From: a virus
Virus record (IMG/VR): IMGVR_UViG_3300033981_001962
Location: 1-64,000 of that record
Length of the DNA: 64,000 bases
Reading direction: 5' to 3' (one strand)
Shown piece by piece: positions 1-61,522 of the stretch (position 1 is the stretch's first letter; each line of letters begins with the position of its first letter). Under the pieces are notes generated by a model. The model ran no database searches. It saw nothing but the letters and a program-made list of their open reading frames with translations, and was not told the DNA's origin. The position numbers and the translations under genes were made by a program.

Positions 1-144
1 CGACTCCAAGTCCAACGCCATCACCAACACCAAGCCCGACTCCAAGTCCAACGCCATCACCAACACCAAGCCCGACTCCAAGTCCAACGCCATCACCAAC
101 ACCAAGCCCGACTCCAAGTCCAACGCCGTCACCAACACCGAGTC
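1..144 (+). repeat. 36-bp tandem repeat array encoding Thr-Pro-Ser-Pro units
   Basis: Positions 1-36, 37-72 and 73-108 are three identical 36-bp units, and 109-144 is a fourth copy with a few substitutions. Each unit encodes twelve residues of alternating Thr-Pro and Ser-Pro. The identity includes third codon positions, which points to recent expansion or homogenisation and not only to selection on the protein. The reverse complement closely resembles the arrays at 7100-7450 and 7738-8320, so these form long imperfect inverted repeats about 7 kb apart. The array runs off the left edge of the window. Confidence 0.95.
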
Positions 145-215
145 CGACGCCTAGCCCAACACCATCTCCGACTCCAACGCCAAGCCCGACACCAACCGAG
201 ACCCCTATTATATAA
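3..215 (+). CDS. Thr/Pro/Ser-rich stalk protein, C-terminal end only (5' partial)
   Basis: The reading frame is open from position 3 and stops at TAA 213-215; the start lies outside the window. All visible residues are TP/SP repeats, with a short tail containing a TET tripeptide and ending in two isoleucines. Composition matches the C-terminal stalks of the two minus-strand proteins at 7082-7708 and 7731-10919, so it is probably a third member of the same set of virion surface fibres. Such proline-rich, Thr/Ser-dense segments are extended and are typical O-glycosylation substrates. Four glycosyltransferase-like genes follow directly on the same strand. The identity of the missing N-terminal domain is unknown. 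Confidence 0.8.
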
Positions 216-239: not shown

Positions 240-791
240 ATGAAAATGAAAATTATCATCTGTCATTATGAACAAAATCTTACATGGATAAATGAATTAA
301 AACATGAATACATTGTTTATAATAAAAATCCTATTAATAATGGAAAATACCACATTGATTTACCAAATGTAGGTTTTGACACTATAGCTTATTTAAGTTA
401 TATAATAGATAATTATTATGATTTACCAGATTATGTTTGTTTTAGTCAAGATAATCCTTTTTTCCACTGTGCCTCTTTTTTAAATATTGTTAATAATTTT
501 AACTTCGATAAAGAATTTGTACCATTGGGAAGAGTATACGAAAGAGGTGGCGAAGTTCTTGATAGAACAATAAATTTATGTAAAAAACACGATATTGCTT
601 ATAAATTACCAATAAAGTTTATTAATTCAGCTCAATGTATTGTTTCTAGAAATTTAATAAAAAAAAGAGATATTGATCAGTATGAAAAAATCAAAAGCTT
701 ATTACCTACATATGAAGTCAAAAACGAGACCAATTATATGGTAGAATATTTATGGCCAACTATTCTAAATTTTAATGAAGAATTAATATGA
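240..791 (+). CDS. DUF3431-like putative glycosyltransferase
   Basis: 183 aa. It resembles the DUF3431 group of small GT-A-like proteins: a short N-terminal strand and turn containing HYEQNLTWI, a central NVGFDTIAYLSYII segment, and a FSQDNPFFH motif. The protein at 55368-55976 is a clear paralogue, sharing the NVGREGHTYL and FCQANPFVH equivalents. Family members occur in surface-polysaccharide clusters; the biochemical role is not firmly known. It opens a four-gene plus-strand cassette and overlaps the next gene by four bases (ATGA). A second in-frame ATG six bases downstream could be the true start. Confidence 0.6.
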   Translation: MKMKIIICHYEQNLTWINELKHEYIVYNKNPINNGKYHIDLPNVGFDTIAYLSYIIDNYYDLPDYVCFSQDNPFFHCASFLNIVNNFNFDKEFVPLGRVYERGGEVLDRTINLCKKHDIAYKLPIKFINSAQCIVSRNLIKKRDIDQYEKIKSLLPTYEVKNETNYMVEYLWPTILNFNEELI

Positions 792-1444
792 ATACAGAAA
801 ACATACCATGCTTAATTATAGCATATAATAATTATACATATGTTAAAAAAATTTGTGAAAGACTTATTAATATAACTAATAATATATTCATTGTTGATAA
901 TAATAGTACATACGGTCCAATGGTAAATTTTTTGGATAATTCTAAACTAAACATTATTAGACTATCGGAGAATCATGGACATAGGGTGTATGAATTAGAA
1001 TCAATTAAAAAAATAGTTGGACCCATTTTCCTATTGACAGATCCTGATATTGAAATATCTGATGCTGTAGATAAAAAAACAATACAAATAATGTATGAAA
1101 CTTCTGAAAAATATAAAATTAGAAAAGTAGGGGTTGCTTTAGATATTTCTGGTGATAATCTGCGAGAAGATGTTAAATATGAAAATCAAACTATAAAACA
1201 ATGGGAAAGTAAATTTTGGCAAAATAAGGTCATACATGAAGAGATAGAAATGTATTGGGCTGATATAGATACCACTTTTTGTTTGATTAATAATAACTAT
1301 ACAACTAATTGGCCATATATAAGATTAGCTGGACCATATACTTCTAAACATCTTCCTTGGTACAAAGATTGGAAAAATCAGTTGATGCCTGGAGAGTACG
1401 AATCGTACATGAGTGGAAACAGATCAACAAACTGGTGCAAATAA
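788..1444 (+). CDS. GT-A fold glycosyltransferase (GT2-like)
   Basis: 218 aa. The N-terminus has the GT2-type pattern of a hydrophobic strand, CLIIAYNN, followed by FIVDNNST and then a LLTDPDIEIS segment that supplies the DxD-like metal and nucleotide-sugar site near residue 95. The C-terminal half contains an aromatic-rich WPYIRLAGPY stretch. It is shorter than a typical GT2 enzyme. It probably transfers a sugar from a nucleotide donor in the host cytoplasm; donor and acceptor are unknown. It overlaps the preceding gene by the ATGA junction and is followed two bases after its stop by the next gene. Confidence 0.7.
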   Translation: MNTENIPCLIIAYNNYTYVKKICERLINITNNIFIVDNNSTYGPMVNFLDNSKLNIIRLSENHGHRVYELESIKKIVGPIFLLTDPDIEISDAVDKKTIQIMYETSEKYKIRKVGVALDISGDNLREDVKYENQTIKQWESKFWQNKVIHEEIEMYWADIDTTFCLINNNYTTNWPYIRLAGPYTSKHLPWYKDWKNQLMPGEYESYMSGNRSTNWCK

Positions 1445-1446
1445 AT

Positions 1447-2124
1447 ATGAAAACAGCGTGTGTTTGTATAGCTAAAAATGAAGATTATTATATTCAAGAA
1501 TGGGTAGAATATCATATTAAATTAGGATTCGATAATATATTTCTTTATCAAAATAATTGGCGCACAAAATTTAATCATCCTAATTTAATTAAAATAGAAT
1601 TTGATGAAGATAGAGGAGATAGACAAATTTATAGTTATAATAAATTTATTGACGATTATAAATCAGAATATGAATATGCTGCTTTTTTTGATATTGATGA
1701 ATTTTTAGTTCTAAAAAATCATAAAAATATAAAAGATTTTTTAAAAAACTATAAAGAATATGCTGCGTTTTGTTTTAGATGGTTTTATTTTGGTAATAAT
1801 GGTTTGGATAAAGTTGAAAATAATAATTATAGTGTTTTACAAAGATTTACAAAAAGAGGTATTAATCCTGATATTATTGGAAAATCTATAGTAAGAATCG
1901 ATAAAAACACCCCTAGTATGCAAGTTCATCGCCCTAATTGTCCTTATCTAGATGTACCAACAGATATTGCTCAATTAAATCACTATTATTCTAAAACTAG
2001 GGAAGAATTTCAAGTTAAAAAATATAATAGAATCGATGATGGTAGATTAGGAGATCATCATTTCGATATAGGAAATCAGAATGAGATAGAAGATTATTTA
2101 GCGTACAACTTTTTTAAAAACTAA
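1447..2124 (+). CDS. GT92/DUF23-like glycosyltransferase
   Basis: About 225 aa from ATG 1447. An upstream in-frame start at 1357 would overlap the previous gene by 88 bases, so 1447 is preferred. The sequence begins with the family pattern CVCIAKNEDYYIQEWVEYH, followed by NIFLYQNN and the acidic FFDIDEFLVL motif near residue 80 that supplies the DxD metal site. A histidine-rich segment (QLNHYYSKT) follows near residue 180, as in Glyco_transf_92 proteins. It probably adds a hexose; the acceptor is unknown. It is the third gene of the plus-strand cassette. Confidence 0.8.
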   Translation: MKTACVCIAKNEDYYIQEWVEYHIKLGFDNIFLYQNNWRTKFNHPNLIKIEFDEDRGDRQIYSYNKFIDDYKSEYEYAAFFDIDEFLVLKNHKNIKDFLKNYKEYAAFCFRWFYFGNNGLDKVENNNYSVLQRFTKRGINPDIIGKSIVRIDKNTPSMQVHRPNCPYLDVPTDIAQLNHYYSKTREEFQVKKYNRIDDGRLGDHHFDIGNQNEIEDYLAYNFFKN

Positions 2125-2133: not shown

Positions 2134-2844
2134 ATGAACTATATCTTTTATCATATGTTTTGTATAAATGACTACTTTGATAGATTCCAAAAAACCATGC
2201 ATAAAATTAAAAATTATGGACTTTATGATTCTATTAATACAATATATATTAATATGATAGGTAAACATATTGATGATTCTATCATTTCACTTCTAAAAGA
2301 CGATAATAAAATTCATCTATCATTTAATTCAAATAATGAAAGTACGGAAGGACACACATTAGATTTTTTATGGAATAAATGTAAGGAATTTTCAGACGAA
2401 GATAATATTTTATATTTACATAGTAAAGGAGTGTGGAGAGCACACTCAAAAGAAAATGAAAAAGATAATATACAGGATTGGATAGACTTAATGGAATATT
2501 TCTTGATAGAATTATGGGACGAATCAACAAAATATTTAAAAAATTATGATGCTTGTGGAGTTAATCTTCAGTCTATACAAGACGGTCATAAACATCCACA
2601 TTTTTCTGGTAATTTTTGGTGGGCATCAAATTCTTATATTAAAAAAATTAGAAGTTTTAATGATGTATATGGTTGTTATATAAGAAAAGATTCTCAACTA
2701 CAGCCTATCGAATTTAGAATTTTTGGAGAGTTTTGGCTTTTGAACGCTTTAAATAAAGGTTTTGCAAATCCGTATTGTATGCATCATTCAAAGATAGATC
2801 ACTATACTAAAAGATATCCTAGATCAGAATATGCACAAAAATAG
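2134..2844 (+). CDS. Putative glycosyltransferase-like protein of surface-glycan type
   Basis: 236 aa. Recognisable blocks are NYIFYHMFC at the N-terminus, ILYLHSKG near residue 89, ACGVNLQ near 145, HFSGNFWWA near 158 and a Glu-rich EFRIFGEFWLL near 192. The YLHSKG and GNFWWA blocks recur in uncharacterised glycosyltransferase-like proteins of bacterial and viral polysaccharide loci. Assignment to a numbered GT family is not possible here. It is the last plus-strand gene and converges with the minus-strand gene ending at 2850, with only five bases between the stops and no obvious terminator hairpin. Confidence 0.55.
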   Translation: MNYIFYHMFCINDYFDRFQKTMHKIKNYGLYDSINTIYINMIGKHIDDSIISLLKDDNKIHLSFNSNNESTEGHTLDFLWNKCKEFSDEDNILYLHSKGVWRAHSKENEKDNIQDWIDLMEYFLIELWDESTKYLKNYDACGVNLQSIQDGHKHPHFSGNFWWASNSYIKKIRSFNDVYGCYIRKDSQLQPIEFRIFGEFWLLNALNKGFANPYCMHHSKIDHYTKRYPRSEYAQK

Positions 2845-2849: not shown

Positions 2850-4226
2850 TTAAATTACCTCTAGATCTGTTCCTAAATTTTTAATAGCATCCTCTAGAGT
2901 CTTTATATTCTCTTTATTGCTATTAGATCCATGCCATTCAATCCATATCTTTTTGATATTTTTAGGCCAATCAGATAATAATTTATTAAGAACTTTATAT
3001 TCTGACCATTCTATATCCATTTTGATATAAATATCTTTTTTAGGATCTAATTTTTTTATAAAGTCTAGCAAATCAACACAGTCCACTACCTCTTCTGCAT
3101 AAAAATCTCCATACGCTTTTCCACCTTCAGTTTCTTCCAATAAAGAACCTTGCCCTTCTCCTTTTTCTCCGTGTTGATTAAAAATAGTTCTTCCATTTCT
3201 TATCCATACTGCTTTTTTATGAAATTGAATAGACAATTCTTTAATCGCTTCAATAAACTCTTCTGTTTTAACCATAGAATTCGGTTCAAAACAATGTATT
3301 TCCCAGCTATTATCTATATATAATTTATCAATATATTTTTTTAATCCTTGTAATTGATGAGATCCTAGATCTAGAAATATTTTTGAAGGTCTATTTCCGT
3401 CTTTATCGAAAAGTTTTAGTCCATCGTCTTTGAATATATTAAAGTAAGTCCTCCAATCACACTTAATTAAACTATATTTGGTTTTATTTTTGCAATAAGT
3501 TATATCGAATATTTTTTCGTCACTTCCTATATATTGATGTTCCAGAGATTCATTAATAGTTTGATTAAAATTATCTAATAATTCATCTATCAAATTTACC
3601 GGAATCAAAAAAGCTGTTCCTTGTATGTATCTTTGTTGAGACAACGCATGATTTTCGATATCTTGATTCCTAATCATTATAGTTTGACTATGGCTAAAAA
3701 ATGTTATTTTTGAGTTATCTAGTTCGTTGATTTTATTCAAACATGGCCATCTTTGATTATTATAATTGGATATATTCTCTCTTAGACCACCAGCATCTAC
3801 CCAAATATAAAAATCTCCATTAAAAAATTCTTTAGCTTTTTTTAGAAAAAATATTTTATTGAACATGATGACATTATATAGGGGTTTGGTCATCTCTGGA
3901 ACTTTAGTATGTATTTTATCTTTGAATTCTTTACTGAACATTAAATCACAAAGTTTAGTATAGTACAGTTTATACGCATCCAACTCCTCAATTGGTGTTG
4001 TTATAATAACTGTTTTATCTAGTGTAGGATCGAATTCCTTACGCATTTCCTCTATTTTAGACAAAAATTTCCGTTCTGTATAAATTACAATATAACTATC
4101 TAATGAGAGAGTATTGCGCATCCATGCTAAATAATTGTTGTATGATAGATTATATGATTCCCAATTATCTCTACCTATATCATAAATAGCTGTAACTAAT
4201 ATTGGCTTTTTTATATCCATTGCCAT
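2850..4226 (-). CDS. HtrL/YibB-like glycosyltransferase fused to an FkbM-type methyltransferase
   Basis: 458 aa with two domains. Residues 1-275 resemble the HtrL_YibB/WlaTC family: an N-terminal strand before TAIYDIGR, YIVIYTERKF, and FYIWVDAGG near residue 140 as the metal-binding loop. Residues 280-450 are a Rossmann-type FkbM methyltransferase: FLDLGSHQLQG (SAM motif I), IHCFEPN, IYIKMDIEWSEY and a final IWIEWHG. The fusion suggests sequential sugar transfer and O-methylation on one glycan, an inference. It overlaps the upstream gene by 16 bases; ATG 4220 is an alternative start with more conventional Shine-Dalgarno spacing. It is the distal gene of the minus-strand cassette. Confidence 0.75.
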   Translation of the reverse strand: MAMDIKKPILVTAIYDIGRDNWESYNLSYNNYLAWMRNTLSLDSYIVIYTERKFLSKIEEMRKEFDPTLDKTVIITTPIEELDAYKLYYTKLCDLMFSKEFKDKIHTKVPEMTKPLYNVIMFNKIFFLKKAKEFFNGDFYIWVDAGGLRENISNYNNQRWPCLNKINELDNSKITFFSHSQTIMIRNQDIENHALSQQRYIQGTAFLIPVNLIDELLDNFNQTINESLEHQYIGSDEKIFDITYCKNKTKYSLIKCDWRTYFNIFKDDGLKLFDKDGNRPSKIFLDLGSHQLQGLKKYIDKLYIDNSWEIHCFEPNSMVKTEEFIEAIKELSIQFHKKAVWIRNGRTIFNQHGEKGEGQGSLLEETEGGKAYGDFYAEEVVDCVDLLDFIKKLDPKKDIYIKMDIEWSEYKVLNKLLSDWPKNIKKIWIEWHGSNSNKENIKTLEDAIKNLGTDLEVI

Positions 4227-4963
4227 GTAATCCTTATATTTTTATGTAAAATATTTATATCGTTAATATCGAACATATCTGATGAATTATCAGGATTGAT
4301 AATAGATTTGAGTGAAAAATTATACATATTTAATACTGTTGGAACAAAACCCTCAGAATAACCAAAATATCCTAAACTATTAATTTCAATCAATTTTCTC
4401 ATCGCTTTATTAGAGTACCTGACCGTTGGAAAAAAAGACCCAAAATATTCATTTGTTTTTGGTAGTATGTCATTATGACCAGGAAATCTTTCAAACCACA
4501 GTTGTCCAGAAGTTGTGTTGTGATCGATATATGGTATATTTTCTGTAGATTTTACATTATTCTTTTTAAAACAAAAATATGACATAAAATCATAATCATA
4601 ATTATTTGTAGTATCAATAAATTTTTGCCAATTATCCATATATACATCATCGTCAAAAAACCAATAATAGTCAAAATCATTATGGGTTAAATAGAAATTA
4701 ATCATTCTAAAATGCGCATAAAACCAGATAATATTTCTGTTGCCATAGCTATTCCAGTAGTGCTTTTTGCTAACATCATGATTAAAATTAAGATTTTTTC
4801 TAATATCAGATTCTGTATATATAAAATCATTAGAATTAAAATTACTATTTTTAGTTTTATCTACAATCAAATAGGTGTTCTCATCAATAAAATTCTTTTT
4901 CCAATCTATTAAATTTTGGGAGTATGTCTCTGATGTTGTACACATGCATATTGCATTACTCAT
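4211..4963 (-). CDS. Putative glycosyltransferase with a DDD metal site
   Basis: 250 aa. The N-terminus (CMCTTSETY) is followed by a central YYWFFDDDVYM block near residue 105, the kind of acidic triad that binds the divalent metal and sugar nucleotide in GT-A enzymes. A segment with RFPGHND, and another with YFGSFFPTVRYS, resembles acceptor loops in uncharacterised bacterial glycosyltransferases. The family was not identified. It overlaps both neighbours by 8 and 16 bases and is thus translationally linked within the 2850-7042 cassette. Confidence 0.6.
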   Translation of the reverse strand: MSNAICMCTTSETYSQNLIDWKKNFIDENTYLIVDKTKNSNFNSNDFIYTESDIRKNLNFNHDVSKKHYWNSYGNRNIIWFYAHFRMINFYLTHNDFDYYWFFDDDVYMDNWQKFIDTTNNYDYDFMSYFCFKKNNVKSTENIPYIDHNTTSGQLWFERFPGHNDILPKTNEYFGSFFPTVRYSNKAMRKLIEINSLGYFGYSEGFVPTVLNMYNFSLKSIINPDNSSDMFDINDINILHKNIRITWQWI

Positions 4964-5786
4964 AATCTTTTATTAACTCCTTATTCCATTCAGAAATACG
5001 ATTAAATTGATGTACTATATCATATTGTAAATCACCAATATATATATTATTATTTCTTAATACTGGTATATCTAGGTATCTTTTTTCAATAGTATTCTTA
5101 AATCCCCAAGATTCAAAAAAATTGGTTGGCCCAGCAACGGCACAATTCACGACCCAACCATCCTTTAATGATAGATATTTAATATGTGCATCAATACGTT
5201 TGATAGTATCCAAAACTATAAGTGCGGCCTGATCTTTTATATTATGATTATTTGAACAGTTTTCACACAAATTATACATGCTAGATAATAAATTAATTAG
5301 ATGGTCTCGTTTTCCTGCTATAATGCCGCTACAAATTACATCTCGATTTCTACATAACTGATAGTATTCTGGAAAAATTTTGTTTATTACATCAGAATTC
5401 CAAGGTTCTTCACTCACCAACACTCCTTCTAAAGTTAGAAACAAATCAAATTTATTAAAGTCTAATTTTTTAAATGGATCATTTTGAAAAATAACATCAA
5501 AAACATCAGTAACTAATATATATTCTATATCAATTTTAGACAAAAGATCATATGTATAGTAAAGTCTTTTATGGTTGATAAATTGTAAATCATTATCATC
5601 AATAATAATATTATGAATATTAATATCTAGTTTTATTAATAAGTCTATTTCTTCATTTGATGCATTTGCTGCAATAAGATATATTGCATCATTTTTACAA
5701 TGTTTTTTAAAGCTATTAGTCCATATTTTTATTTTTGAATAATTAGCTGTAATATTTGTTACAAAACCAACCAATGCCCTTTTCAT
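4956..5786 (-). CDS. Putative GT-A glycosyltransferase
   Basis: About 276 aa from ATG 5786, chosen because it overlaps the upstream stop as ATGA; a longer frame begins at 5813. Visible blocks are LVGFVTNITANYSKIKIW, AIYLIAANAS, and ILVTDVFDVIFQNDPF near residue 100, which provides an acidic D-x(3)-D metal site typical of GT-A enzymes acting on glycoproteins or polysaccharides. A CSGIIAGK loop near residue 155 and DQAALIVLD near 185 also match the fold. Donor and acceptor are unknown. It is the second gene of its transcript after the GT60 gene. Confidence 0.65.
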   Translation of the reverse strand: MKRALVGFVTNITANYSKIKIWTNSFKKHCKNDAIYLIAANASNEEIDLLIKLDINIHNIIIDDNDLQFINHKRLYYTYDLLSKIDIEYILVTDVFDVIFQNDPFKKLDFNKFDLFLTLEGVLVSEEPWNSDVINKIFPEYYQLCRNRDVICSGIIAGKRDHLINLLSSMYNLCENCSNNHNIKDQAALIVLDTIKRIDAHIKYLSLKDGWVVNCAVAGPTNFFESWGFKNTIEKRYLDIPVLRNNNIYIGDLQYDIVHQFNRISEWNKELIKDYE

Positions 5787-7042
5787 ATTATTGAACCTTC
5801 TATTTTTTCGCACCAGCCTTTAGATAGTGAGTGCGGCCATACCACCCATTTTTTTGGCATTTCGGAAACATGAAATTCTCTCCATATATTATAGAAGGTC
5901 GGTCGCCCGTTAGAAACTGTATTTTTTATTTCTTCTTTATCACTATCTTTTCTATATACTGTTCTATCTTCAGCATCATGAAAAGCAACCACCCAAAAAT
6001 CATAATCATTTTCATTAATTTTATCTGATGGTAAATTTATACAATATTTAAAAATGTGTTGTAATGATTCTTGAAAATCTTTATCAGGAATATCTATATT
6101 ATTCAAATTAGGATTTTTATGATAAATCACATCATCTGTAATGGATCTTGATTTAAACGATAGCCCACTATACTTCTCATAATCTGTTAAACTTCTAATA
6201 TTGCCAAAACCATATTTTTCAAAATCAATATCTTGTTTTTCATTATCCATTCCAAATAATTTTCTATTTCTTAAATGGCTTAATTGGTTTCTTACATGCC
6301 AAGTTTTATCATCATCCCACTGTTTGGTTCTGTCTTTTCTAGTATATTCGTGCCAAGCCACAACAATATTAGGATGAAAAAGATCATATCCGTGTGTAAA
6401 TGCTCTTACTGCTATACTTATTTCTTCACCATGAAAATAATAATTAGGGTCGTGTTGTACTTCTTTAACAAAATCACCTAATGTAAACGCAAAGTGTGCG
6501 CTATAAAATCTGGATGGTATAGGTTTAGTAATATCATCATTATTGTCAAATGGTGCTGGTAAAAAGAAAACGGCCCCTTCTGGTATGAATCTATCAAAAT
6601 TCATTTTCCAAGGAACCATAACTCTATCACTTGGGTCATTTTTTGGATTATAACTAGGCAAGTATGTGGTGATCAATGGTTTGTTATAACCATCATTTTG
6701 CAAATTTTTGACCATGTCTATCAATAAAATGTCCCAATCTTTTATAAACCTATGATGACTATCTATTTGTAGTGTATACTTTTCATTATTATATAACTGT
6801 TGTACTTTATTTCTGGCCCAACATACTCCCTGAGATTGTTTATAATCTATATCTATAATTCTAAATCGTTTATCATTTTTAAATAAATCTATATTATCCC
6901 AAGCATCATTTTTTTTATTATTTTGCCACGCTATGCCGAATCTTAGATTGTTAGGATTTGCTGCTTTATCTATCAGATCATTAATAGTTGGTACTAATTC
7001 AGGATCCCTGTATGATGCTATTTGAATAAATATTGTTTCCAT
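5783..7042 (-). CDS. GT60-type polypeptide GlcNAc-transferase homologue
   Basis: 419 aa. It has the hallmarks of the pfam GlcNAc family (GT60): FIQIASYRDPELVPTI at the N-terminus, RFGIAWQN near residue 35, GVCWARNKVQQLY near 70, and LQIDSHHRF near 90 as the DxH metal site, then HFAFTLGDF near 180 and HGEEISIAVRA near 200. Characterised eukaryotic members transfer GlcNAc to Thr or hydroxyproline of proteins (for example Dictyostelium Skp1). The upstream gene, 39 bases away, encodes a Thr-Pro-Ser stalk, an obvious candidate acceptor; that pairing is inference. It heads the 2850-7042 cassette and overlaps the next gene as ATGA. Confidence 0.85.
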   Translation of the reverse strand: METIFIQIASYRDPELVPTINDLIDKAANPNNLRFGIAWQNNKKNDAWDNIDLFKNDKRFRIIDIDYKQSQGVCWARNKVQQLYNNEKYTLQIDSHHRFIKDWDILLIDMVKNLQNDGYNKPLITTYLPSYNPKNDPSDRVMVPWKMNFDRFIPEGAVFFLPAPFDNNDDITKPIPSRFYSAHFAFTLGDFVKEVQHDPNYYFHGEEISIAVRAFTHGYDLFHPNIVVAWHEYTRKDRTKQWDDDKTWHVRNQLSHLRNRKLFGMDNEKQDIDFEKYGFGNIRSLTDYEKYSGLSFKSRSITDDVIYHKNPNLNNIDIPDKDFQESLQHIFKYCINLPSDKINENDYDFWVVAFHDAEDRTVYRKDSDKEEIKNTVSNGRPTFYNIWREFHVSEMPKKWVVWPHSLSKGWCEKIEGSII

Positions 7043-7081
7043 AATGAATTTAAGTCCTTTGATTATATAGAGATATAGTAA

Positions 7082-7708
7082 TTATGGGGTTGGTGACGGC
7101 GTCGGATTCGGTGTTGGTGATGGCATTGGACTCGGTGTTGGCGACGGCGTTGGACTAGGAGTTGGCGATGGTGTCGGGCTAGGTGTTGGCGACGGCGTTG
7201 GACTCGGAGTAGGACTTGGAGTCGGACTTGGTGTTGGCGATGGAGTAGGACTTGGCGTGGGTGATGGAGTCGGACTTGGCGTGGGTGATGGAGTCGGACT
7301 TGGAGTCGGACTTGGTGTTGGCGATGGAGTAGGACTTGGCGTTGGACTAGGTGTCGGACTCGGTGTTGGTGACGGCGTTGGAGTAGGAGTCTCAGTGGGA
7401 GTAGGTGTCGGGGTAGGTGTTGGAGTTTCTGTTGGTGTTGGTGATGGTGTTGGCGTTGGAGGTATAGTTTCCATACATCCTACATATGCTAATCTGATCA
7501 AGACAGCAGATTCTAGTGGTTCTTCGAAACATATATCGGTAGTAGTTATTGAAGATGTTAATAATTGTTGTGTTGTCCATGTTCCTCCATTGTCTAAACT
7601 AGTCTCAATATAATATCCAGGAATAAAATTAGCAGCTGATATAGTGATAGTATAACACGGAGCATTACTACTTACGCATTCTATATTGATAATTTTAATA
7701 GGTTCCAT
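7082..7708 (-). CDS. Small fibre protein: beta-rich head plus Thr/Pro/Ser stalk
   Basis: 208 aa. Residues 1-85 form a compact, probably Ig-like or beta-sandwich domain ([39 protein letters not shown]) with four cysteines. Residues 85-208 are almost only TP and SP repeats, with a TETPT interruption near the junction as in the 1062-residue neighbour. No signal peptide is seen, as expected for a virion protein. It lies 22 bases downstream of the large stalk gene and 39 bases upstream of the GT60 gene. Part of the array is identical at DNA level to the neighbouring gene, a sign of recombination or gene conversion. The repeat copy number may vary between clones. Confidence 0.8.
7100..7450 (-). repeat. 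Thr-Pro-Ser-Pro coding array A
   Basis: Low-complexity array inside the 7082-7708 gene. A 92-bp segment, 7188-7279, is identical to 7933-8024 in the next gene, including synonymous positions. The array is in the opposite orientation to the one at 1-144. Confidence 0.95.
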
Positions 7709-7730
7709 AATATTATTCTCTTATTATAAC

Positions 7731-10700
7731 TTAAGGAGTGGGCGATGGCGTTGGACTCGGAGTCGGGCTTGGTGTTGGCGACGGCGTTGGGCTTGGTGTT
7801 GGACTCGGTGTTGGCGATGGTGTCGGGCTAGGTGTTGGCGATGGCGTTGGACTCGGTGTTGGCGATGGTGTCGGGCTAGGTGTTGGCGACGGCGTTGGAC
7901 TCGGAGTAGGACTTGGAGTCGGACTTGGTGTTGGCGACGGCGTTGGACTCGGAGTAGGACTTGGAGTCGGACTTGGTGTTGGCGATGGAGTAGGACTTGG
8001 CGTGGGTGATGGAGTCGGACTTGGAGTCGGACTTGGAGTCGGACTTGGTGTTGGCGATGGCGTTGGACTCGGTGTTGGCGATGGTGTCGGGCTAGGTGTT
8101 GGCGACGGCGTTGGACTCGGAGTAGGACTTGGAGTCGGACTCGGTGTTGGCGACGGCGTTGGACTCGGAGTAGGACTTGGAGTCGGACTTGGTGTTGGCG
8201 ATGGCGTTGGACTTGGTGTTGGCGACGGCGTTGGAGTAGGAGTCTCAGTGGGAGTAGGTGTCGGAGTAGGAGTTTCAGTTGGTGTTGGTGTTGGAGTAGC
8301 TGATGGACTCGGAGTTGGACATTGATTACTATCAAACTCATGAGATAACGATTCACAATGACGAGTAGGTTCTGGTGTTGGACATGGTTCAGTAGGTCCC
8401 GGAGTAGGAGTAAATGCTACTGGAGTTTCTGTTGATGTTGGTGCTGGTGTTGGAGTAGGATCGCATGTTGGTTCCTCATCATATACAACTACACACTCAG
8501 GATCATTCCATACCCCCCACTCTGATCCACAAGTATATTCCACAGCATCAGTACCCAATAATAATTCAATATTCCATGGGGGAACTGGTCTAAAATTGTT
8601 CATTACATTCAACCATTCGAGTTCGTTAGCAAAATCAACAATTTGAATACCTGTTTCACAAGCTCCATTTTGCATAAACTCATCGCCTATCATTACTCCA
8701 CAGCCCCAGTTTTTCATTTCATTGTCTTTTGTTAGTACTGGCGAGCAAGACGATTCTTGATTAGGAAATTGTTCTGAAACTGTCCATTGATAGTAATATT
8801 CTTTAAATCTACCAGCACAAACACCATCACCGAACAGTAATTGATTATCAATATCATCACAGACCGGTGCAGTACCCCACATAGCAGCATAATGATTCGA
8901 TATAGCAGAACCCAGGGGCCAAGCAGTAGTTAAACCTCCATATGTCCAATCTGTATTTGTTACTTGTCCAACAGTAAATACCACCCAATCGGGAAGTCCT
9001 CTTCTTGTAAATGCAGTATAGTAATATTTTGTTGTTGCGGCACTTTCGTCTGGAGGACCATATACCGTTTCTCTCATTATTGCAGATCGTGTACTAGCAA
9101 GACCTTGTGTTCTTGGAGAATCTGGTCCGTCTACCTCAAATAATTCCCATCCAGGAACCAAGTCATTTCTAAAATGCCATAAAGCATAACCTGCAAATGG
9201 ATAGGATGGATCAACTGATTCTGATTCAGAAACGAAATTGCCAGGAGTAATAACATCTTCATTGTACGGCCGCGGACCACTCTCTATGCATCTTTTTCTG
9301 ACATAAAAACCATCATTTCCAATCCCATAATCCTCTGGTAAACAAGAAGGCCATAAATATTTATCAACACAATAATTTGTATATATACTATTATAAAGAT
9401 CTTGTTCAAAAGGTGTTGTTGGAGGATCTGGAACCATCCATCTAGGATTATTGGGAGCATATATCGCTATAAATCCATCAAAAACAGACTCAACGTGTCT
9501 AGTATTAAGATTAAATTTAAAAGTTCTTTGGATTGTAGAAACACATAATTTTTTAACTCTATAGCCACATTCACAAGCTTCTTGATTTTCAAAAGAATAA
9601 TCACAAGTATCTATAGGCTTATTATAATTTTGTGTACTTTCATTCCATCCTGATTCATAAGCTCTTAATGGACCAATTACACAAGTATTTGATCCCGCAC
9701 ATTCTCTGGCTAGTATTTTAAGATTATACTCATTTGATCCTTCGTATAGTGGTTCGAACCACATATTTAAAATTCCATTACCTAACGTATCACATTCACT
9801 TATTCCTGATACTGCCGGAGAACATCCATTAATTCCACATTTTCCTCCTCTACCGGCCGATGTACCAATACTCAAAGTTTCCAAATCCTGTTGAGAAAAT
9901 ATAACGCTGGATGCTGTACAGCATTTGGCCTTACCAAGACGCCCACAATTATCACAACAACTAGCAGAAAGATTTCCTGTTATCCTAATAGGTTCTAAAG
10001 ACACACAACAGTCTTGTTTTTCGCAATATTGTGTACAGTTATCATAATCAACTATCAGAGGAGGACACGTCAAATTACTAATCGGGTCTACAATAACCGG
10101 ACTTATACACGGACCATTGCCGCCACACGGCCCACCACAAGCAGCTTGCATATCTGGATGACACTCTCCATCAGGTACACATCCTCCAGGATTATATCCA
10201 TTATAAAATACCCATCCATATTCTTCTTCTAATCTTTGTTGAGAAAAGTATTCATTATGTGTATGTCCAGTTTCGTCCACAGGAACCCAAGGCTGGTTAT
10301 CTACGACAATAGGAGCAAAATGACCATGTTCGTCGGTTCCTGGCATATAACTTAGACCAGCATTGGCTGTTACGTTTTGATAACCCATATCTTCCAAACA
10401 AGTTTTTAATTCATTTAGAGCACCACTCAATCTGTCAATAATTGTAAAATCAGCATTTTGAGCCCAAGCTAATGCATATTGCTCCATATTATATATTTGT
10501 TCTGGATATACCGGATTGGTCAAATAGCAATACTCATGAGGTGTCCATTCCGCGAAACACTCAGGAGGAAAATCACAACCAATTGCGGATCCATTGCAAA
10601 CATCGCAATAGAAAGCACAACAATCGGTTCTATTTGCAAAATCACAATCACAACCGGGCGAAAAAGTACCATCACTTCCAGGAAGACCATGTAGCGCACA

Positions 10701-10919
10701 AATACCTGCTGGTGGATTTTCGTTTATAACAACTGGTTTTGATGGACCATCAGGGATACAATTAGTGTACGATGGTGGGCTAGTTGGCAGACCATTTTTT
10801 ACATAGTCTATATTTGCGGAAATGTATGAACAGCATCCGCCACAACAGTTTTCATCTGTTGTTACACCGTGTTGTGTTAGTGATATTCTACCATCACACG
10901 ATACATAAACAGGAGACAT
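7731..10919 (-). CDS. Large cysteine-rich surface protein with C-terminal Thr/Pro/Ser stalk
   Basis: 1062 aa. Residues 1 to about 835 form a cysteine-rich region with roughly 50 cysteines, many as CC pairs or CxxC (ENCCGGCC near 25, GPCGGNGPC near 265, SASCCDNCG near 320). A short Pro/Thr linker with three more cysteines follows, then about 195 residues of TP/SP repeats from about 866. No known domain was recognised and no signal peptide is evident. The cysteines could form disulfides after lysis or bind metal. It is probably a virion appendage in which the C-terminal stalk carries or spaces the head. The start ATG overlaps the upstream stop (TAATG) with AAGGA upstream. The N-terminal region has normal codon use for this genome. 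Confidence 0.75.
7738..8320 (-). repeat. Thr-Pro-Ser-Pro coding array B with 48-bp units
   Basis: Contains identical adjacent 48-bp units at 7885-7932 and 7933-7980, repeated again at 8101-8148 (one change) and 8149-8196, so a block of about 216 bp has itself been duplicated. It shares long exact matches with array A and is inverted relative to the array at 1-144. Confidence 0.95.
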
Positions 10920-14153: not shown

Positions 14154-14617
14154 GATTTTTTAATTTCTGGTTGTATTTTGATTTTTAAAAATTCTTTACT
14201 CATATTTTTAATAATATCTATTATATCTGATATATTACTATATGGAATAACTTTATTATGAATTCTATTCCATGAATTACATATATTTTCAGATACTGCA
14301 ATTTGATATACTGGTTCGAACATATAATGATTGGGCACTTCTGATATATAATTTGGTTTTTCAACATGATCTATAATGATTAGTGGGCAATGTAAAAATA
14401 GTGCTAATTCTATACATTTATCTAAATTTATCATTCTATTATTGCAAACTACAAGATCTATATCATAAATACCATATAGAGTATCCTCCATATCTATAAG
14501 ATTAATATTATCTTTTTCTATATGCTTTTCAAAATTTTTATGATCAGTGTATGTCCATAATACATTTGGTGTGTTATTCATTAATAGAGTTTTATGTATA
14601 ATTGATGATATACTCAT
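14150..14617 (-). CDS. Hypothetical protein of glycan cluster
   Basis: 155 aa. Alternating strands and helices (NINLIDMEDT, DIDLVVCNNRMINL, LFLHCPLIIIDHVEKPNY, YQIAVSENICNSW) suggest a Rossmann-like domain similar to the N-terminal half of a GT-B glycosyltransferase, but no nucleotide-sugar-binding half is present. It overlaps both neighbours by four bases, between a GT4 enzyme and a methyltransferase-like protein. Function unknown; it may be a truncated glycosyltransferase or a partner subunit. Confidence 0.5.
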   Translation of the reverse strand: MSISSIIHKTLLMNNTPNVLWTYTDHKNFEKHIEKDNINLIDMEDTLYGIYDIDLVVCNNRMINLDKCIELALFLHCPLIIIDHVEKPNYISEVPNHYMFEPVYQIAVSENICNSWNRIHNKVIPYSNISDIIDIIKNMSKEFLKIKIQPEIKKS

Positions 14618-15720
14618 ATAAACCCTTTAATATTATTGATAGAATAGCTTAGGACTTTATGGTTTTGTGATTCTATTCGCTCAGACTTTTCTGAAAGAGA
14701 CTCACTTAAAGCTCGCTTCATTTGCATAACCAAACTATCAAGTTCCGGAACATAATATTTATGATGAAAAGAATTATATATCCAATATGGATGACTATTA
14801 TCGTGAGCATTTTTAGGGGTTGATTCTACTCCATAGAATTTTGTACCCTTAACTATATCTGAAGAACCAGAATTCTTATTCACTATAATCTGATTATTAA
14901 AACACATAGCCTCTAATACTGGATATCCAAAACTTTCTCCGGACGATATATCTATATAACAATCGCAATTATTATGTATATATAGTATATTATCATATTT
15001 AGTTTCCCCTACTATAAGTGTTGGGTATGTTATATTTTTATCGATCTTAAAAGGTAATGAATCTATTATTTTATCTATTTCATAGGTCAATAAAGATGTT
15101 AAGTTACTACTATCATTATTTGTATTTTTAGTTTTAATCAGTAGTCCAGTATCTGGAAATTCTATAGCAATAATAAAGAATGCTAGAATCAAAGTTTGTA
15201 GATTTTTTTTATTAGTAAAATCTGATATGGTATAAAACATAAACTTGTTTTTTTTAGATTGTTTTATATTTTTCTGTTTATAATCATCTATAATTGATAA
15301 ATCTATAAATTCTGGCACAACTTTTATTTTATCAATATCTATGTTGCCATTAATAAGTTCTTCTCTAGCGTGTGTTGAACCAACCCAAATTTCATCCACG
15401 ATATTCAGATATTCATAAATATCGTATCCATAATGAGTTTTATCTAAAGAAACTATACCTATATTTTTATAGCCATTGATATGACAAAACTGGTGTGGAT
15501 ATGCATGTTGAATTATTGTATCATAATTGTCTAAATTATTCTTTTCACAACGAATAATAATATCTTCTAATTCTTGTTCTATAATAGGTTTTATAGTATT
15601 GAATAGTGGGCGACAGACAATATTGAATCCAGCGTCGCATAAAGCCTGTATATATTTTCTAGATGCATTACCTATTCCAGTAAATTCTCTATATGGTCCT
15701 ATATATAGTATATTATTCAT
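14614..15720 (-). CDS. GT4-family glycosyltransferase
   Basis: 368 aa with a GT-B fold. The N-terminal acceptor domain starts NNILYIGPYREFTGIGNASRKYIQAL; the linker has KFMFYTISDFTNKKNLQTLILAF; and the C-terminal donor domain has SSGESFGYPVLEAMCFN, the E-x7-E motif that contacts the nucleotide sugar. Length is normal for GT4. It retains its sugar with inversion or retention as GT4 (retaining) by family knowledge. It follows the 534-residue GT4 gene with a four-base overlap, so both are probably co-translated. Confidence 0.85.
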   Translation of the reverse strand: MNNILYIGPYREFTGIGNASRKYIQALCDAGFNIVCRPLFNTIKPIIEQELEDIIIRCEKNNLDNYDTIIQHAYPHQFCHINGYKNIGIVSLDKTHYGYDIYEYLNIVDEIWVGSTHAREELINGNIDIDKIKVVPEFIDLSIIDDYKQKNIKQSKKNKFMFYTISDFTNKKNLQTLILAFFIIAIEFPDTGLLIKTKNTNNDSSNLTSLLTYEIDKIIDSLPFKIDKNITYPTLIVGETKYDNILYIHNNCDCYIDISSGESFGYPVLEAMCFNNQIIVNKNSGSSDIVKGTKFYGVESTPKNAHDNSHPYWIYNSFHHKYYVPELDSLVMQMKRALSESLSEKSERIESQNHKVLSYSINNIKGFI

Positions 15721-17321
15721 GATGACAAGAAATTATCATTTAGTTTGATTTTTCCTGATCTGACTTGTTCACAAAAGACTTTATTATTTAAGAATATCTC
15801 TAGTGCTTTGATAACCGCTTCTCTGGCTTGAATATTATTTTTATTTGATGTGATATCAATAGATTCATTGAGTGATTTTATTAGGTTTTGAGCAAAATAA
15901 GTTTTTAATAAATTAGGCTCACACATAATATCACGGATAATAAATTCTACAAATTCTCTATTGGATAGATTATCTGGAACTGATAGTTTTGTATTGGCAT
16001 TCATTGGAACAGACCATATGTCTTCATTTATAGGCATATTATCAAAAACATCCATGATAGTTTTTGCTGTCATATCCCAACTATAATTTTGAACTAATAA
16101 TTCTCTTGTTTTATGTGAAAATTTAAGCTTATCTTTTGTTGTTTTTTGCATCCATTCCATGATCTCGTGCATTAAATGATCATTATCTGGTGTTGCCCTA
16201 TCTGATCCGGTTTCCAACTCAGTAGCCAATAAATAATTAATTTTAACGCCATCAACTTTAGATGTTATTTCTTCCATTCCGCTATAATTAACAGAAAAAA
16301 TAGGTATACCACAAGAAGCAGCTTCTAGCTGAGGAATACCCAAGCCTTCACAAATAGCATACTGTACATATATATCAAATAAATTATATACATCATTAAG
16401 CTGATCGTTATTAATACCTAATTGCACATTAGGGAAGATGGATACTCCATCGTCACATGACGGAGATGGTATCTTTGAGCCTTTATATTTTGATACAAAT
16501 ATACTATTATCCTTAATAGAATAATATGTAAATAATACATTATTCTCCACCCCATGCTCTTGTAACAATTCGGGAATCGGCCAACCCTGTTTTTCTGGAT
16601 AAGAAGTATGCAAATATAAAAATATATTATGATTATTTGTCGTATCTATTAATTTTCTTAGAACTTTAAATAATTCAGCAATGAGTTTACGCTTTTGATT
16701 TCTCATTACTGATCCTATAATAATAGAATCGGCTGGTAAACCATATCTAGATTTATGATATGTTTTTGTACAGTGTACTGGTTGAAAAACTTCTGTGTCA
16801 ACAGAATCTGTGATGCACGGACCAACATTAATAGGTCTATTTAGAGACCTTAAATAGTCTCCAGCCCAATCGGTATGTGTTAATACCATATCTGCATTTT
16901 CAAACGTTGTTAACCATTCTGTTTTTTGTGGTATAGAATCTATGGTTGGGGCTATTATCCATTTATAGTATGGTCTTAAACATGAAAGTTCTTGGTAGGA
17001 GAACATCCAATAATCCCTTATATCAAAAACTATATCAGGTTTAAAATCTAATAATACTTTTTCGAATCTCCATTGACCAAATTGATTAAGCTGATTAGAT
17101 TCGTATGCTTCTATACTTTGTTTATCATCGTCTTTTGGTACGTTTGAGTATACTTTCCATGGTACGTTTGTTTTTGATCCATCTTTATGATAACAAGCCA
17201 ATTCAGCAAGCTCATATTTATTACTTTTACTTAGTCTGTATAGTATTTCCTTTGTGTATCTGCCGAATCCAGAATTTATATGATGCGCCTCTGCACACAT
17301 CAATACTCGTTTTTTTCTCAT
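15717..17321 (-). CDS. GT4-family glycosyltransferase, long form
   Basis: 534 aa. The N-terminus (RVLMCAEAHHINSGFGRYTKEI) is the typical GT4 start with a glycine loop for acceptor binding. The C-terminal Rossmann domain has IGSVMRNQKRKLIAELF, and AICEGLGIPQLEAASCG near residue 330 as the E-x7-E donor site. About 130 extra residues at the C-terminus have no recognised domain. It is the first gene after the SSB unit and probably has its own promoter at 17376-17405, followed by a 5' hairpin. It probably works with the adjacent GT4 enzyme on the same glycan. Confidence 0.85.
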   Translation of the reverse strand: MRKKRVLMCAEAHHINSGFGRYTKEILYRLSKSNKYELAELACYHKDGSKTNVPWKVYSNVPKDDDKQSIEAYESNQLNQFGQWRFEKVLLDFKPDIVFDIRDYWMFSYQELSCLRPYYKWIIAPTIDSIPQKTEWLTTFENADMVLTHTDWAGDYLRSLNRPINVGPCITDSVDTEVFQPVHCTKTYHKSRYGLPADSIIIGSVMRNQKRKLIAELFKVLRKLIDTTNNHNIFLYLHTSYPEKQGWPIPELLQEHGVENNVLFTYYSIKDNSIFVSKYKGSKIPSPSCDDGVSIFPNVQLGINNDQLNDVYNLFDIYVQYAICEGLGIPQLEAASCGIPIFSVNYSGMEEITSKVDGVKINYLLATELETGSDRATPDNDHLMHEIMEWMQKTTKDKLKFSHKTRELLVQNYSWDMTAKTIMDVFDNMPINEDIWSVPMNANTKLSVPDNLSNREFVEFIIRDIMCEPNLLKTYFAQNLIKSLNESIDITSNKNNIQAREAVIKALEIFLNNKVFCEQVRSGKIKLNDNFLSS

Positions 17322-51940: not shown

Positions 51941-53014
51941 TTATCCGTATAAATGATTATAGAGAATATTTGCGGTATTTGACCAAGTTAAATTTTTGGC
52001 CGTTTCTAACCCTACAGGATTAGTATTTACACTGTTCTTATACACATATCTCATATGTTCTACCATTTGTTCGATCTCATTGAAAGATAAATCGGCCCAA
52101 TTACCAAAACCATCAAAAAATAAATTATCTTTTGCGGGTACTAATCGGTCTATATCGATAAGATATGAATTATTAGTATTAGCATATTCTGTATGTGCAG
52201 AATAGTTGGTTAAAATTATTGGCTTATTCATAGCCATCATTTCTACCGCTTCATTATTCCATCCTTCTGCCCTTGCTGGAAAAATTCCACAATCGGACAT
52301 TGATATAATATTGGCCACATCCTTATGTGTTGGTAATCTTGGTAGTATTTTTATTTTATTGCCAAGTTTAGAATTTTGATATAATTTTACCCATTTTAAA
52401 TTATCTTCTGGACTTAAAAATGGATTATATGATAGCATCCATAATTCCACATTATCTTTTTCTTCAAATGCCAAATTAAATGCTTCTAATAAAACATCAT
52501 GACCTTTTCTTAATTCCCATTTGCCCATATTTAGAAATATATATTTGTCTGAGGATTCTTTTGGTCGTTCATGAGCAACAGAAGTATTAAATATTTCTTG
52601 ATCCGCCGCTAGTGGAGATACGCATATTTTTGTTGTAATATTATTATTCAATAAAATCTGTTTGGCCCAGTTAGACGCAACAAATATTATATCAGTATTA
52701 TTTATCATACTAATTTCTATTGGTTTTAATTTATCAACTTCAAAAAAAGTTAATGCCGCATACTTACCATTACCTATTCTTGTTGCTAAATCATATTGGT
52801 GCCATATTTTTAAAAATGTAGTTTGATTATCATAGATTAATTGTTTCTGTATATCTTCTACTATATTTTGTTTATCTGTTTCAAAATCTATAGAAGGATT
52901 TCCTATAGGAAATAAACAAATCTCAAGTTTATCTCTTAATTGTTTATATATATTATATGATGTTATGCCATAGCCTGTTGATCCAATTGGACACATTAGA
53001 TTTAATTTATTCAT
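51941..53014 (-). CDS. GT4-family glycosyltransferase
   Basis: 357 aa. N-terminal domain starts LNLMCPIGSTGYGITSYNIY; the donor domain has YIFLNMGKWELRKGHDVLLEAF near 170 and FPARAEGWNNEAVEMMAMN near 250 as the E-x7-E motif. It probably adds sugars to the same glycan as the other enzymes in 51941-58241. Its ATG abuts the GMP reductase stop with a one-base overlap. Confidence 0.85.
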   Translation of the reverse strand: MNKLNLMCPIGSTGYGITSYNIYKQLRDKLEICLFPIGNPSIDFETDKQNIVEDIQKQLIYDNQTTFLKIWHQYDLATRIGNGKYAALTFFEVDKLKPIEISMINNTDIIFVASNWAKQILLNNNITTKICVSPLAADQEIFNTSVAHERPKESSDKYIFLNMGKWELRKGHDVLLEAFNLAFEEKDNVELWMLSYNPFLSPEDNLKWVKLYQNSKLGNKIKILPRLPTHKDVANIISMSDCGIFPARAEGWNNEAVEMMAMNKPIILTNYSAHTEYANTNNSYLIDIDRLVPAKDNLFFDGFGNWADLSFNEIEQMVEHMRYVYKNSVNTNPVGLETAKNLTWSNTANILYNHLYG

Positions 53015-54664: not shown

Positions 54665-55371
54665 ATATCAAATTCTTTTTTAACAACACAACCGATACCC
54701 AAAAAACTACCATTCACACTATTATATTGATCAGTGAATTCATAAAAATTATGCGTATCAACTAATTCAGTCTTTAATTCTTTCCAATATCTTACTACTC
54801 CTGGACAATGATCATTAACAATATCATGAAATACTTGTATATTAGCTGAATTTCGAGTATTTTCGCTATCTTGTTTTACTCCATCATAATTATGATCCCC
54901 GTCAATTAAAATCAAATCATATTTATTAGTTTGCATAAATTCTATAAAAGATTTATTGTGGGAATCTGTTCTGACATAATTAACAAATTTGTGTTTAGAT
55001 AAATAGTCTAAAATAAGCTGATTTGGTTCTAAAAGATCACAGGCCGTAGAAAAAAAAGACTCGCCTGTGTTGAATTTCCTGATTAATTCTGTTGTTAATA
55101 TAAACGTTCCACCAGATCGACATCCTATTTCGTAGTAACTGTTGATTTTAGTAGCATACGATGTAAGCCATTTTAGGTATTTGCTAAATTGATTAGGGTA
55201 TTGCCAAATTCTAAAGCCAAAACCTTTACCATAAAAATCATTATATTCTGGTGGTTGTTCGTGCAGAATTTCATTATTAAGACCAAGATCTAAAATGATT
55301 TTTTCTATAGATGCTAAAGACCCAAAAGATTCTTTGGTCAAATTGTCTAGATATTCTTGATAATTGTTCAT
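54661..55371 (-). CDS. Class I SAM methyltransferase
   Basis: 236 aa. YEIGCRSGGTFILTTELI (motif I) near residue 80, LILIDGDHNYDGVKQD near 150, and NIQVFHDIVND near 175 match the Methyltransf_24 group of sugar- or antibiotic-type O-methyltransferases. The acceptor is unknown, probably a sugar given neighbours Glf and DUF3431. It overlaps both adjacent genes by four bases. Confidence 0.75.
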   Translation of the reverse strand: MNNYQEYLDNLTKESFGSLASIEKIILDLGLNNEILHEQPPEYNDFYGKGFGFRIWQYPNQFSKYLKWLTSYATKINSYYEIGCRSGGTFILTTELIRKFNTGESFFSTACDLLEPNQLILDYLSKHKFVNYVRTDSHNKSFIEFMQTNKYDLILIDGDHNYDGVKQDSENTRNSANIQVFHDIVNDHCPGVVRYWKELKTELVDTHNFYEFTDQYNSVNGSFLGIGCVVKKEFDI

Positions 55372-61149: not shown

Positions 61150-61522
61150 TTTTTAACCATTCAGCATATTTTATTTTGTCTTTATATCCAATATATTGGG
61201 ATGTTTCTATGTTTTTTTTCATAACTCTTGAGTCCGGAATTTTTCTTACTCTGTATTCTTTTATAAGATCCGGTCTGTTATCATAGTCTATGATACAAAT
61301 TATACAATCTTTTAAAGACTCATTATCTGATTGCAAAAATTCCCTTTTTAAGATTTCACAATTTTTGCACCAATCAGCACTAAAAACTATTAATATATCC
61401 TGCTTAGATGATTCTGCAAGAGCCACAGCATCTTCTAGACTATCTACTAAAATACTTTCTCCAAACACATTATTAGATGTTAATAATAATAATACACCAA
61501 ATAAACTATTCAATAATCTCAT
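61136..61522 (-). CDS. Periplasmic thioredoxin-like protein
   Basis: 128 aa. Signal peptide RLLNSLFGVLLLLTSNNVFG, then a thioredoxin fold with IVFSADWCKNCEILKREF (WCxxC) near residue 50 and VRKIPDSRVM near 95 (cis-proline). It should act on disulfides outside the cytoplasm, perhaps for the secreted S1 protease or another cysteine-rich protein. Overlaps the glycosyltransferase gene upstream by 17 bases. Confidence 0.75.
   Translation of the reverse strand: MRLLNSLFGVLLLLTSNNVFGESILVDSLEDAVALAESSKQDILIVFSADWCKNCEILKREFLQSDNESLKDCIICIIDYDNRPDLIKEYRVRKIPDSRVMKKNIETSQYIGYKDKIKYAEWLKNARQ

Follow-up and report, generated by a model that had tools for sequence, protein, structure and literature searches.

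We describe here a gene cassette in a 64,000-nucleotide stretch of viral DNA (the window; bases 1–64000 of the linear virus record IMGVR_UViG_3300033981_001962 of IMG/VR, 65,921 bp), in which a glycosyltransferase (GT) gene of family GT60 follows two genes for proteins that end in long threonine-proline and serine-proline (TP/SP) repeats. On balance, this cassette is probably a phage-encoded mucin-type O-glycosylation unit, in which GT60 would prime Thr and Ser of the TP/SP tails with O-linked N-acetylhexosamine (O-HexNAc). The evidence comes from the genes and the operon-like way in which they are packed, the folds predicted for GT60 and for a second glycosyltransferase (GTa), the conservation of an Asp-Ser-His (DSH) motif, the linkage of GT60 to TP-rich genes across phages, and the tail module beside a third TP/SP protein. 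The source is a large uncultivated phage, an origin supported by the tape-measure protein encoded in a longer contig (G134) of the same phage.

The cassette, its repeat tails and its GT60 enzyme

The genes of the cassette are as follows.

5783–7042, minus strand: GT60 (PF11397) glycosyltransferase, 419 amino acids, proposed initiating polypeptide O-HexNAc transferase (PF11397 profile, predicted fold, invariant D94-S95-H96 and H231)
7082–7708, minus strand: TP/SP-tailed protein 1, 208 amino acids, a 75-residue N-terminal domain and a 133-residue TP/SP block, proposed acceptor
7731–10919, minus strand: TP/SP-tailed protein 2, 1062 amino acids, a Cys-rich 855-residue part and a 207-residue TP/SP block, proposed acceptor
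4956–5813 (likely true start 5786), minus strand: GTa, GT-A-fold glycosyltransferase by predicted structure, proposed elongation enzyme
4211–4963, minus strand: GTb, putative glycosyltransferase with a conserved YWFFDDD, overlapping GTa by 8 nucleotides (nt)
2850–4226, minus strand: HtrL_YibB domain fused to an FkbM methyltransferase domain, proposed to extend and methylate the glycan

On this strand, the order runs from TP/SP protein 2 through TP/SP protein 1, GT60, GTa and GTb to the HtrL_YibB–FkbM fusion. The packing looks operon-like, as if read in one transcript, because all of these genes share one direction, gaps of 22 nt (between TP/SP proteins 2 and 1) and 39 nt (between TP/SP protein 1 and GT60) separate the first three, and the genes downstream of GT60 overlap, beginning with an ATGA that holds the GT60 stop and the likely GTa start. 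The 5137-bp stretch at 5783–10919 recurs letter for letter in two further IMG/VR contigs, which makes it unlikely that the repeats arose by misassembly of a single contig.

An earlier note on this DNA had reported that the two proteins upstream of GT60 end in TP/SP repeats, which measurement bears out, with blocks at residues 76–208 of the smaller protein (133 residues) and 856–1062 of the longer one (207 residues). A third TP/SP protein, absent from that note, lies at the left edge of the window, its tail ending at 215 on the plus strand with a TP block of 125 residues. Pro, Thr and Ser make up about 92% or more of all three blocks, each of which is a long Pro/Thr/Ser-rich repeat domain of mucin-like kind. 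The longest unbroken runs of (T/S)P reach 44 dipeptides in the smaller protein and 85 in the longer one, whereas 2000 shuffles of the 860-residue N-terminal part gave no run longer than 3. The final 166 residues of the longer protein consist of 42 Thr, 83 Pro and 41 Ser, with no other residue, and are encoded with four different codons for Pro, three for Thr and, for Ser, both boxes (AGY 26, TCN 15). Because silent positions vary and serine uses both codon boxes, this pattern points to selection acting on the TP/SP protein rather than on a DNA repeat alone. TP/SP protein 1 has no Pfam match at E ≤ 0.1 and no NCBIfam match at E ≤ 0.01, and TP/SP protein 2 has no Pfam match at E ≤ 0.1 and no PHROG match at E ≤ 0.01. 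The label 'stalk', given to both in the earlier note, is an interpretation; the smaller one is a 75-residue domain with a TP tail.

The GT60 homologue that the same note had placed at 5783–7042 on the minus strand is firmly identified. The protein matches PF11397 with E = 6.9e-77 and 259.7 bits (curated cut-off 21), over profile positions 96–351 of 352 together with an N-terminal piece, 1–53, and PHROG 24687 ('glycosyltransferase') with E = 6e-166. All 31 phage proteins of one alignment carry D94-S95-H96 unchanged, as do all 21 of another that takes in the proteins of phages XacN1 and RAS14, and H231 is likewise invariant in the aligned relatives. When an AlphaFold2 model (mean predicted local distance difference test score (pLDDT) 91.3) was compared with solved structures, ranks 1–29 were all polypeptide N-acetylgalactosamine (GalNAc) transferases, the enzymes that initiate mucin glycans, at Z 19.5–23.1, with a root mean square deviation of 3.4–3.8 in all but two rows and 262–281 aligned residues in all but two; the next family followed at Z 16.8, and absence from such fold-search lists excludes no family. 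The GT-A neighbours of the predicted model and the invariant DSH together indicate a GT-A fold with a DxH metal site. As judged from the model, the resemblance to polypeptide GalNAc-transferases is a likeness of fold rather than family membership, because no PDB chain matches GT60 by phmmer or profile search at E ≤ 1. Membership of the GT27 sequence family was not found either, PF11397 being the sole Pfam family detected in the protein. After the GT-A domain, residues 328–417 of the model form a beta-rich C-terminal part; the protein, scanned as a whole, has no ricin-type lectin match in Pfam.

Linkage of GT60 to TP-rich genes

What we regard as the strongest argument that it is the TP part beside which GT60 is kept is its repeated pairing with dissimilar scaffolds. 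A scan of viral contigs gave 170 confirmed GT60 relatives, and the best 80 of the 170 were grouped into 35 clusters at 95% identity, 34 of which entered the count. A TP-rich gene lies directly upstream on the same strand at 22 of 34 non-redundant GT60 loci, compared with 14 of 513 other genes from the same loci, and none of 20,000 permutations reached 22 (highest 6). Cluster L025 was left out by the gene caller despite a TP gene 75 nt upstream, and L018 was scored negative because of a small intervening open reading frame (ORF); both were entered as TP on the GT60 tree. Where ORFs overlap, the caller prefers the TP-rich one, and it does so for every gene, here and in the general test of TP-rich genes below. 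The gap between GT60 and the TP gene is mostly 75–100 nt in the large clade. On the tree, TP pairing requires five changes, at least four of them forced by well-supported branches, and the non-TP parts of the partners in L003, L006, L008 and the large clade form separate groups (BLASTP E ≤ 1e-3, at least 40 residues), with the proviso that very distant kinship may exist among such short domains. The earlier note had proposed searching related phages for this linkage, and it is indeed present in several GT60 lineages with BLAST-dissimilar partners. In the reverse direction, among the matches listed, GT60 occurs in 7 of 50 records with a TPTPTPTP pattern and 0 of 40 with the backward pattern (the first 50 listed TP records of at least 15 kb and 40 of 42 listed controls; L255 and L343, which fall under both patterns, were left out). 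A conserved neighbour gene was also tried as a GT60-free control and failed, with GT60 adjoining it in 70 of 80 loci.

GT60 relatives were found in 3 of 50,697 phage records, those of XacN1, CM1 and RAS14. The enzyme of XacN1 is ORF334 (45% identity), and the TP pattern is counted 36 times in this phage (3 for the backward control) and 28 times in RAS14 (control 1). The TP-rich ORF350 of XacN1 lies on the same strand as GT60, about 12 kb away, and adjoins ORF351, which is annotated as structural. Proteomics of this Xanthomonas phage, an isolate, is described as having revealed at least two glycoproteins (PMC5852040).

Several observations weigh against TP/SP tails as the acceptor. Likeness of a predicted fold is no proof of acceptor; the available text of the XacN1 account neither names the glycoproteins nor mentions ORF350 (PMC5852040); and close relatives dominate our sample, in which 34 loci are not 34 independent events. 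TP pairing is missing from 12 of the 34 clusters, including the clade L009/L010/L014/L017/L055, where no TP ORF occurs in the flanks read (up to 10 kb per side) and the cassette sits among genes of non-structural look. TP DNA pattern matches number zero in the records of L014 (180 kb) and L010 (78 kb), one in that of L009, 32 in L017 and 3 in L055, those of the last two being far from GT60. L016, L069, L013, L053, L081 and L005 also depart from the TP-upstream arrangement; in the sister L005, HtrL_YibB lies directly upstream of GT60, the protein that stands where TP/SP protein 2 would be seems, by eye, to have no tail, and TP ORFs are found 5–9 kb off on the opposite strand. Among 31 records of at least 40 kb, out of 80 anchored on ribonucleotide reductase (contigs that may be fragments), the TP pattern is present in 7 of the 10 that carry GT60 and in 9 of the 21 that lack it, no clear difference, and the backward control matches 5 of these 31 as well, which makes a single match weak evidence; we set this genome-level co-occurrence aside as unusable. 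Furthermore, 0 of 47 genes downstream of TP-rich phage genes (69 viral loci) match a GT family at E ≤ 0.001, whereas at least five GT-type families, counting HtrL_YibB, appear among 112 control genes (of 114 listed, with 25 of 48 control families shown), and a general rule by which a TP-rich gene is followed by a GT was rejected on these numbers. TP-rich tails are common phage furniture and, because none of those 47 downstream neighbours matches a GT family, alone no sign of glycosylation; GT60 beside them is the unusual part.

The absence of GTs downstream of TP-rich genes in general, the clade in which GT60 is kept away from TP genes, and the non-TP protein of structural look directly upstream of GT60 in L013, L053 and L081 would all fit a reading in which virion proteins are glycosylated and the main acceptor lies elsewhere, in another structural protein or at a site in a folded domain, the tails being spacers that lie nearby as late genes cluster. 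We consider this unlikely in view of the TP adjacency (22 of 34 against 14 of 513), which recurs with BLAST-dissimilar partners, and of the likeness of the GT60 fold to enzymes that act on P/T/S-rich unfolded peptide. The proposal of the earlier note, a phage system that builds O-glycans on its own virion stalks, thus gains from the linkage, the fold neighbours and the XacN1 glycoproteins, and is tempered by the 0 of 47 and by the clade with GT60 away from TP genes.

Cellular genomes contain GT60 too, and its pairing there with TP-rich genes lends weak support to the linkage. In a scan of the best 80 of 168 loci, of which 79 were counted (L562 was left out, and some of the close loci may belong to phage contigs sorted into bacterial bins), a TP-rich gene adjoins GT60 at 6 of 79 loci compared with 14 of 676 background genes, and 133 of 20,000 permutations were as high. 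The pairs come from Saprospiraceae, Jiulongibacter, Vicinamibacterales, Gemmatimonas and Prosthecobacter loci; three of these bacterial TP-rich proteins have, by eye, twin-arginine-like N-termini, and the TP-rich stretch of Gemmatimonas (L509) is only 37 residues long. A draw of GT60 genomes from two phyla gave, apart from the two seed genomes, a TP neighbour in 0 of 15 (some of which may be among the 79), and one of 395 Bacteroidota gave a full-strength match in the seed genome only, with ten others borderline. Jiulongibacter sediminis (L505) carries a second, shorter GT60-like paralogue of 313 amino acids, with DAH replacing DSH, about 1.1–2.1 kb upstream of GT60, and its TP-rich gene stands between the two. 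In Paraburkholderia, Trinickia and Cupriavidus (L521, L522 and L513), GT60 lies directly downstream of a secreted-looking protein that by eye resembles spore-coat-U/Csu pilins, perhaps another type of GT60 acceptor.

Proposed mechanism, accessory genes and other possible substrates

We infer the acceptor, the identity of the sugar, the order of steps, presence in the virion and a biological role in masking or binding as follows. The late virion proteins encoded on the same transcript as GT60 would present extended TP/SP tails, and in the cytoplasm of the infected cell the enzyme would transfer HexNAc to the Thr residues of these tails, and perhaps to Ser, most likely as alpha-linked N-acetylglucosamine (GlcNAc) taken from the UDP-GlcNAc of the host. 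The sugar would next be lengthened and methylated, first by GTa and then by GTb and the HtrL_YibB–FkbM protein, and the glycosylated tails would enter the particle, where a stiff hydrated brush could space, shield or stick appendages. Family membership makes UDP-GlcNAc the most likely donor; that of the fold neighbours is UDP-GalNAc. Because tailed phages assemble their virions in the cytoplasm, a soluble GT60 would need no secretion route.

Three more glycosyltransferase-like genes and an FkbM gene had been read downstream of GT60 in the earlier note, and these fare differently. GTa is upheld by predicted structure: its model (pLDDT 89.6) has a GT-A fold, with the glucosyltransferase domain of LH3 (Z 17.9) as closest solved structure, tied with GT6-type enzymes (Z 17.5). 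GTb has no significant family match; it and its relatives share the conserved YWFFDDD stretch, and the relatives give weak matches to DUF3405 (E = 0.0098) and, in one of six, to the TET-associated glycosyltransferase (TAGT) family (E = 0.051). FkbM is not a separate gene; it forms the C-terminal half of 2850–4226 (E = 1.1e-05), the N-terminal half of which is HtrL_YibB (E = 3.8e-19), an uncharacterised family. Both Pfam matches are above cut-off, and the FkbM half is also matched above cut-off by NCBIfam (1.5e-12); the YibB equivalog model stays well below its cut-off. The order GT60-GTa-GTb-YibB is retained in phage loci L010, L017 and L055 (GTa and GTb aligned, YibB by eye), and in L013 and L081 with one additional gene between GT60 and GTa (YibB again by eye); the product of this gene resembles the DUF3431 protein in the second cluster described below. 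Downstream of many GT60 cassettes lies a conserved anchor gene (130-residue domain, P0001; L085–L164), the product of which is extended at its C-terminus by a TP-rich stretch in some phages, L106 and L120 among them, but not in others.

Such genes can be given other substrates. Glycosylation of DNA by phage GTs is known (PMC12619734), and the marginal TAGT match would fit a cassette that glycosylates the bases of phage DNA; that match is not significant, the family and fold of GT60 indicate peptide acceptors and the neighbours are virion-type genes, and we regard DNA as an extremely improbable substrate. Genes of the HtrL_YibB, FkbM, GT2, GT4-like and UDP-galactopyranose mutase kinds are generally found in bacterial surface-polysaccharide pathways as well, and the GTs could by this token modify a host surface glycan, such as lipopolysaccharide or capsule, or make a free glycan, leading to serotype conversion or superinfection exclusion. 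This is improbable: GT60 is linked to TP/SP proteins, the cassette genes, the one part of the genome scanned for such functions, show no flippase or polymerase domain, and GT60 members act on polypeptides in the accounts available, on Thr of mucins in Trypanosoma cruzi (PMC9472816) and on a hydroxyproline of Skp1 (PMC6939170).

The Skp1 case raises the question of whether hydroxyproline, formed from proline in the TP/SP tails, is what GT60 glycosylates here; the Toxoplasma GT60 enzyme Gnt1 is described as requiring hydroxyproline (PMC6939170). Runs of three matches to 2-oxoglutarate (2OG)-Fe(II) oxygenases are present in two GT60 phage records (G037:C1:32797-35529 and G039:C1:228284-229801), both of which belong to the clade without a TP neighbour. 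PF13640, the only 2OG family searched, was not found in the record of the window nor in 44 of the 46 records searched. These 44 include G134, the longer contig, and the entire genomes of XacN1 and RAS14; most of the records may be fragments. Such a route seems very improbable to us, and priming of Thr and Ser in the TP/SP tails is the reading that we carry forward.

A second glycosyltransferase cluster adjoins the third TP/SP protein.

3–215, plus strand: TP/SP tail of the third protein (337 amino acids, N-terminal part beyond the window; whole at L003:16828-17841, minus strand)
240–791, plus strand: DUF3431 protein, first gene past the third TP/SP protein (Pfam E = 1.9e-14)
788–1444, plus strand: GT2-type glycosyltransferase (Pfam E = 4.8e-06)
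1387–2124, plus strand: GT92 / Glyco_tranf_2_4 protein (Pfam E = 1.7e-12 and 3.4e-11)
2134–2844, plus strand: last gene of the cluster, without a Pfam or NCBIfam match

This phage thus has a TP/SP protein followed by glycosyltransferases at two places, one on each strand, and GT60 is missing from the second; there, the third TP/SP protein is followed by DUF3431, GT2, GT92 and one gene without a family match. In the longer contig, this protein comes after a run of large same-strand genes that includes the tail-length tape measure (PHROG E = 4.5e-21); other scanned members of the run have no PHROG match and no Pfam match over cut-off.

Elsewhere in the window, a UDP-galactopyranose mutase (55973–57061; GLF E = 2.5e-75, TIGR00031 over cut-off), a GT34/GT8-like gene (57058–57708) and a second DUF3431 protein (55368–55976) adjoin on the minus strand. 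A mutase of this kind would allow the phage to supply galactofuranose. Of 46 records, 5 contain GLF (1 of 25 with GT60 and 4 of 21 without), and a galactofuranose link between the mutase and T. cruzi glycans was dropped, as GLF is unrelated to GT60 across these records. Further glycosyltransferase genes match Glycos_transf_1 over cut-off at 14614–15720, 15717–17321 and 51941–53014, and a GT2/GT7-like gene, below cut-off, lies at 61506–62261 on the minus strand; the number of such genes is high for a fragment of the window's size.

Relation to known glycosylation systems

To our knowledge, few phages glycosylate their own particles, and the role of most phage glycosyltransferases is unknown. 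That distant phages retain the GT60–TP pairing suggests that phages sugar-coat their own particles. A broader picture, which we offer tentatively as somewhat less probable than not, is that mucin-type O-glycosylation is widespread in large environmental phages, with a cytosolic GT60 priming TP/SP tails acquired by many unrelated virion proteins and a conserved GTa-GTb-YibB set elongating the sugar; in some bacteria, GT60 and TP-rich proteins would pair as if glycosylated before twin-arginine (Tat) export, and GT60 would then be an old prokaryote or virus enzyme and the source of the parasite and Skp1 pathways. A peptide-priming enzyme beside simple repeat tails offers a substrate open to synthesis and direct test. 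If the cassette works as proposed, a gene that one scan detected in 170 stretches of viral contigs would gain a function, the XacN1 glycoproteins would have a possible explanation, and the finding would bear on the origin of mucin-type glycosylation; bacteria could then also be used to make O-glycosylated TP/SP repeats by a compact, soluble route.

Phage virion glycosylation as such is already known, and glycosylation by a GT60-bearing phage has been suggested in print, in a source whose available text does not contain the TP/SP link. In the open PubMed Central (PMC) literature, among the matches listed, we found no description of a GT60–TP/SP link in phages and no peptide-priming, mucin-type arrangement, and no paper in that literature was found to combine 'GT60' and 'bacteriophage'.

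The animal and protist GT27 polypeptide GalNAc-transferases, the metal motif of which is DxH, share this motif with the phage enzyme and are the closest solved folds to the GT60 model (Z up to 23.1); they differ in that no PDB sequence matches it at E ≤ 1 and that Pfam finds only PF11397. Mycobacteriophages (as cited in PMC12619734) and XacN1 likewise have phage-encoded glycosyltransferases and glycosylated phage proteins, but the mycobacteriophage glycans are placed at the C-termini of capsid and tail tube subunits (as cited in PMC12619734), and neither account, in the text available, describes a TP/SP acceptor or a GT60 link. Moraphages, a lineage of large aquatic phages, are comparable in carrying several core glycosyltransferases (four core orthogroups), the families of which the available text (PMC12619734) does not name. 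Skp1 Gnt1 of Dictyostelium and Toxoplasma is also a GT60 enzyme that glycosylates a cytoplasmic protein, according to the account available (PMC6939170), but it requires a prolyl hydroxylase, and PF13640 was not found in the record of the window or in the longer contig. The galactofuranose extension of T. cruzi glycans has no supported link to our system, in which the UDP-galactopyranose mutase of the window does not track GT60. The nearest parallel in mechanism would be T. cruzi TcOGNT, also of PF11397/GT60, which is described as acting on mucin-like acceptors by GlcNAc-alpha-Thr priming followed by elongation (PMC9472816). TcOGNT is a eukaryotic Golgi enzyme that serves surface mucins anchored by glycosylphosphatidylinositol, whereas the enzyme described here belongs to a phage, is presumably cytosolic and would act on virion-type TP/SP tails.

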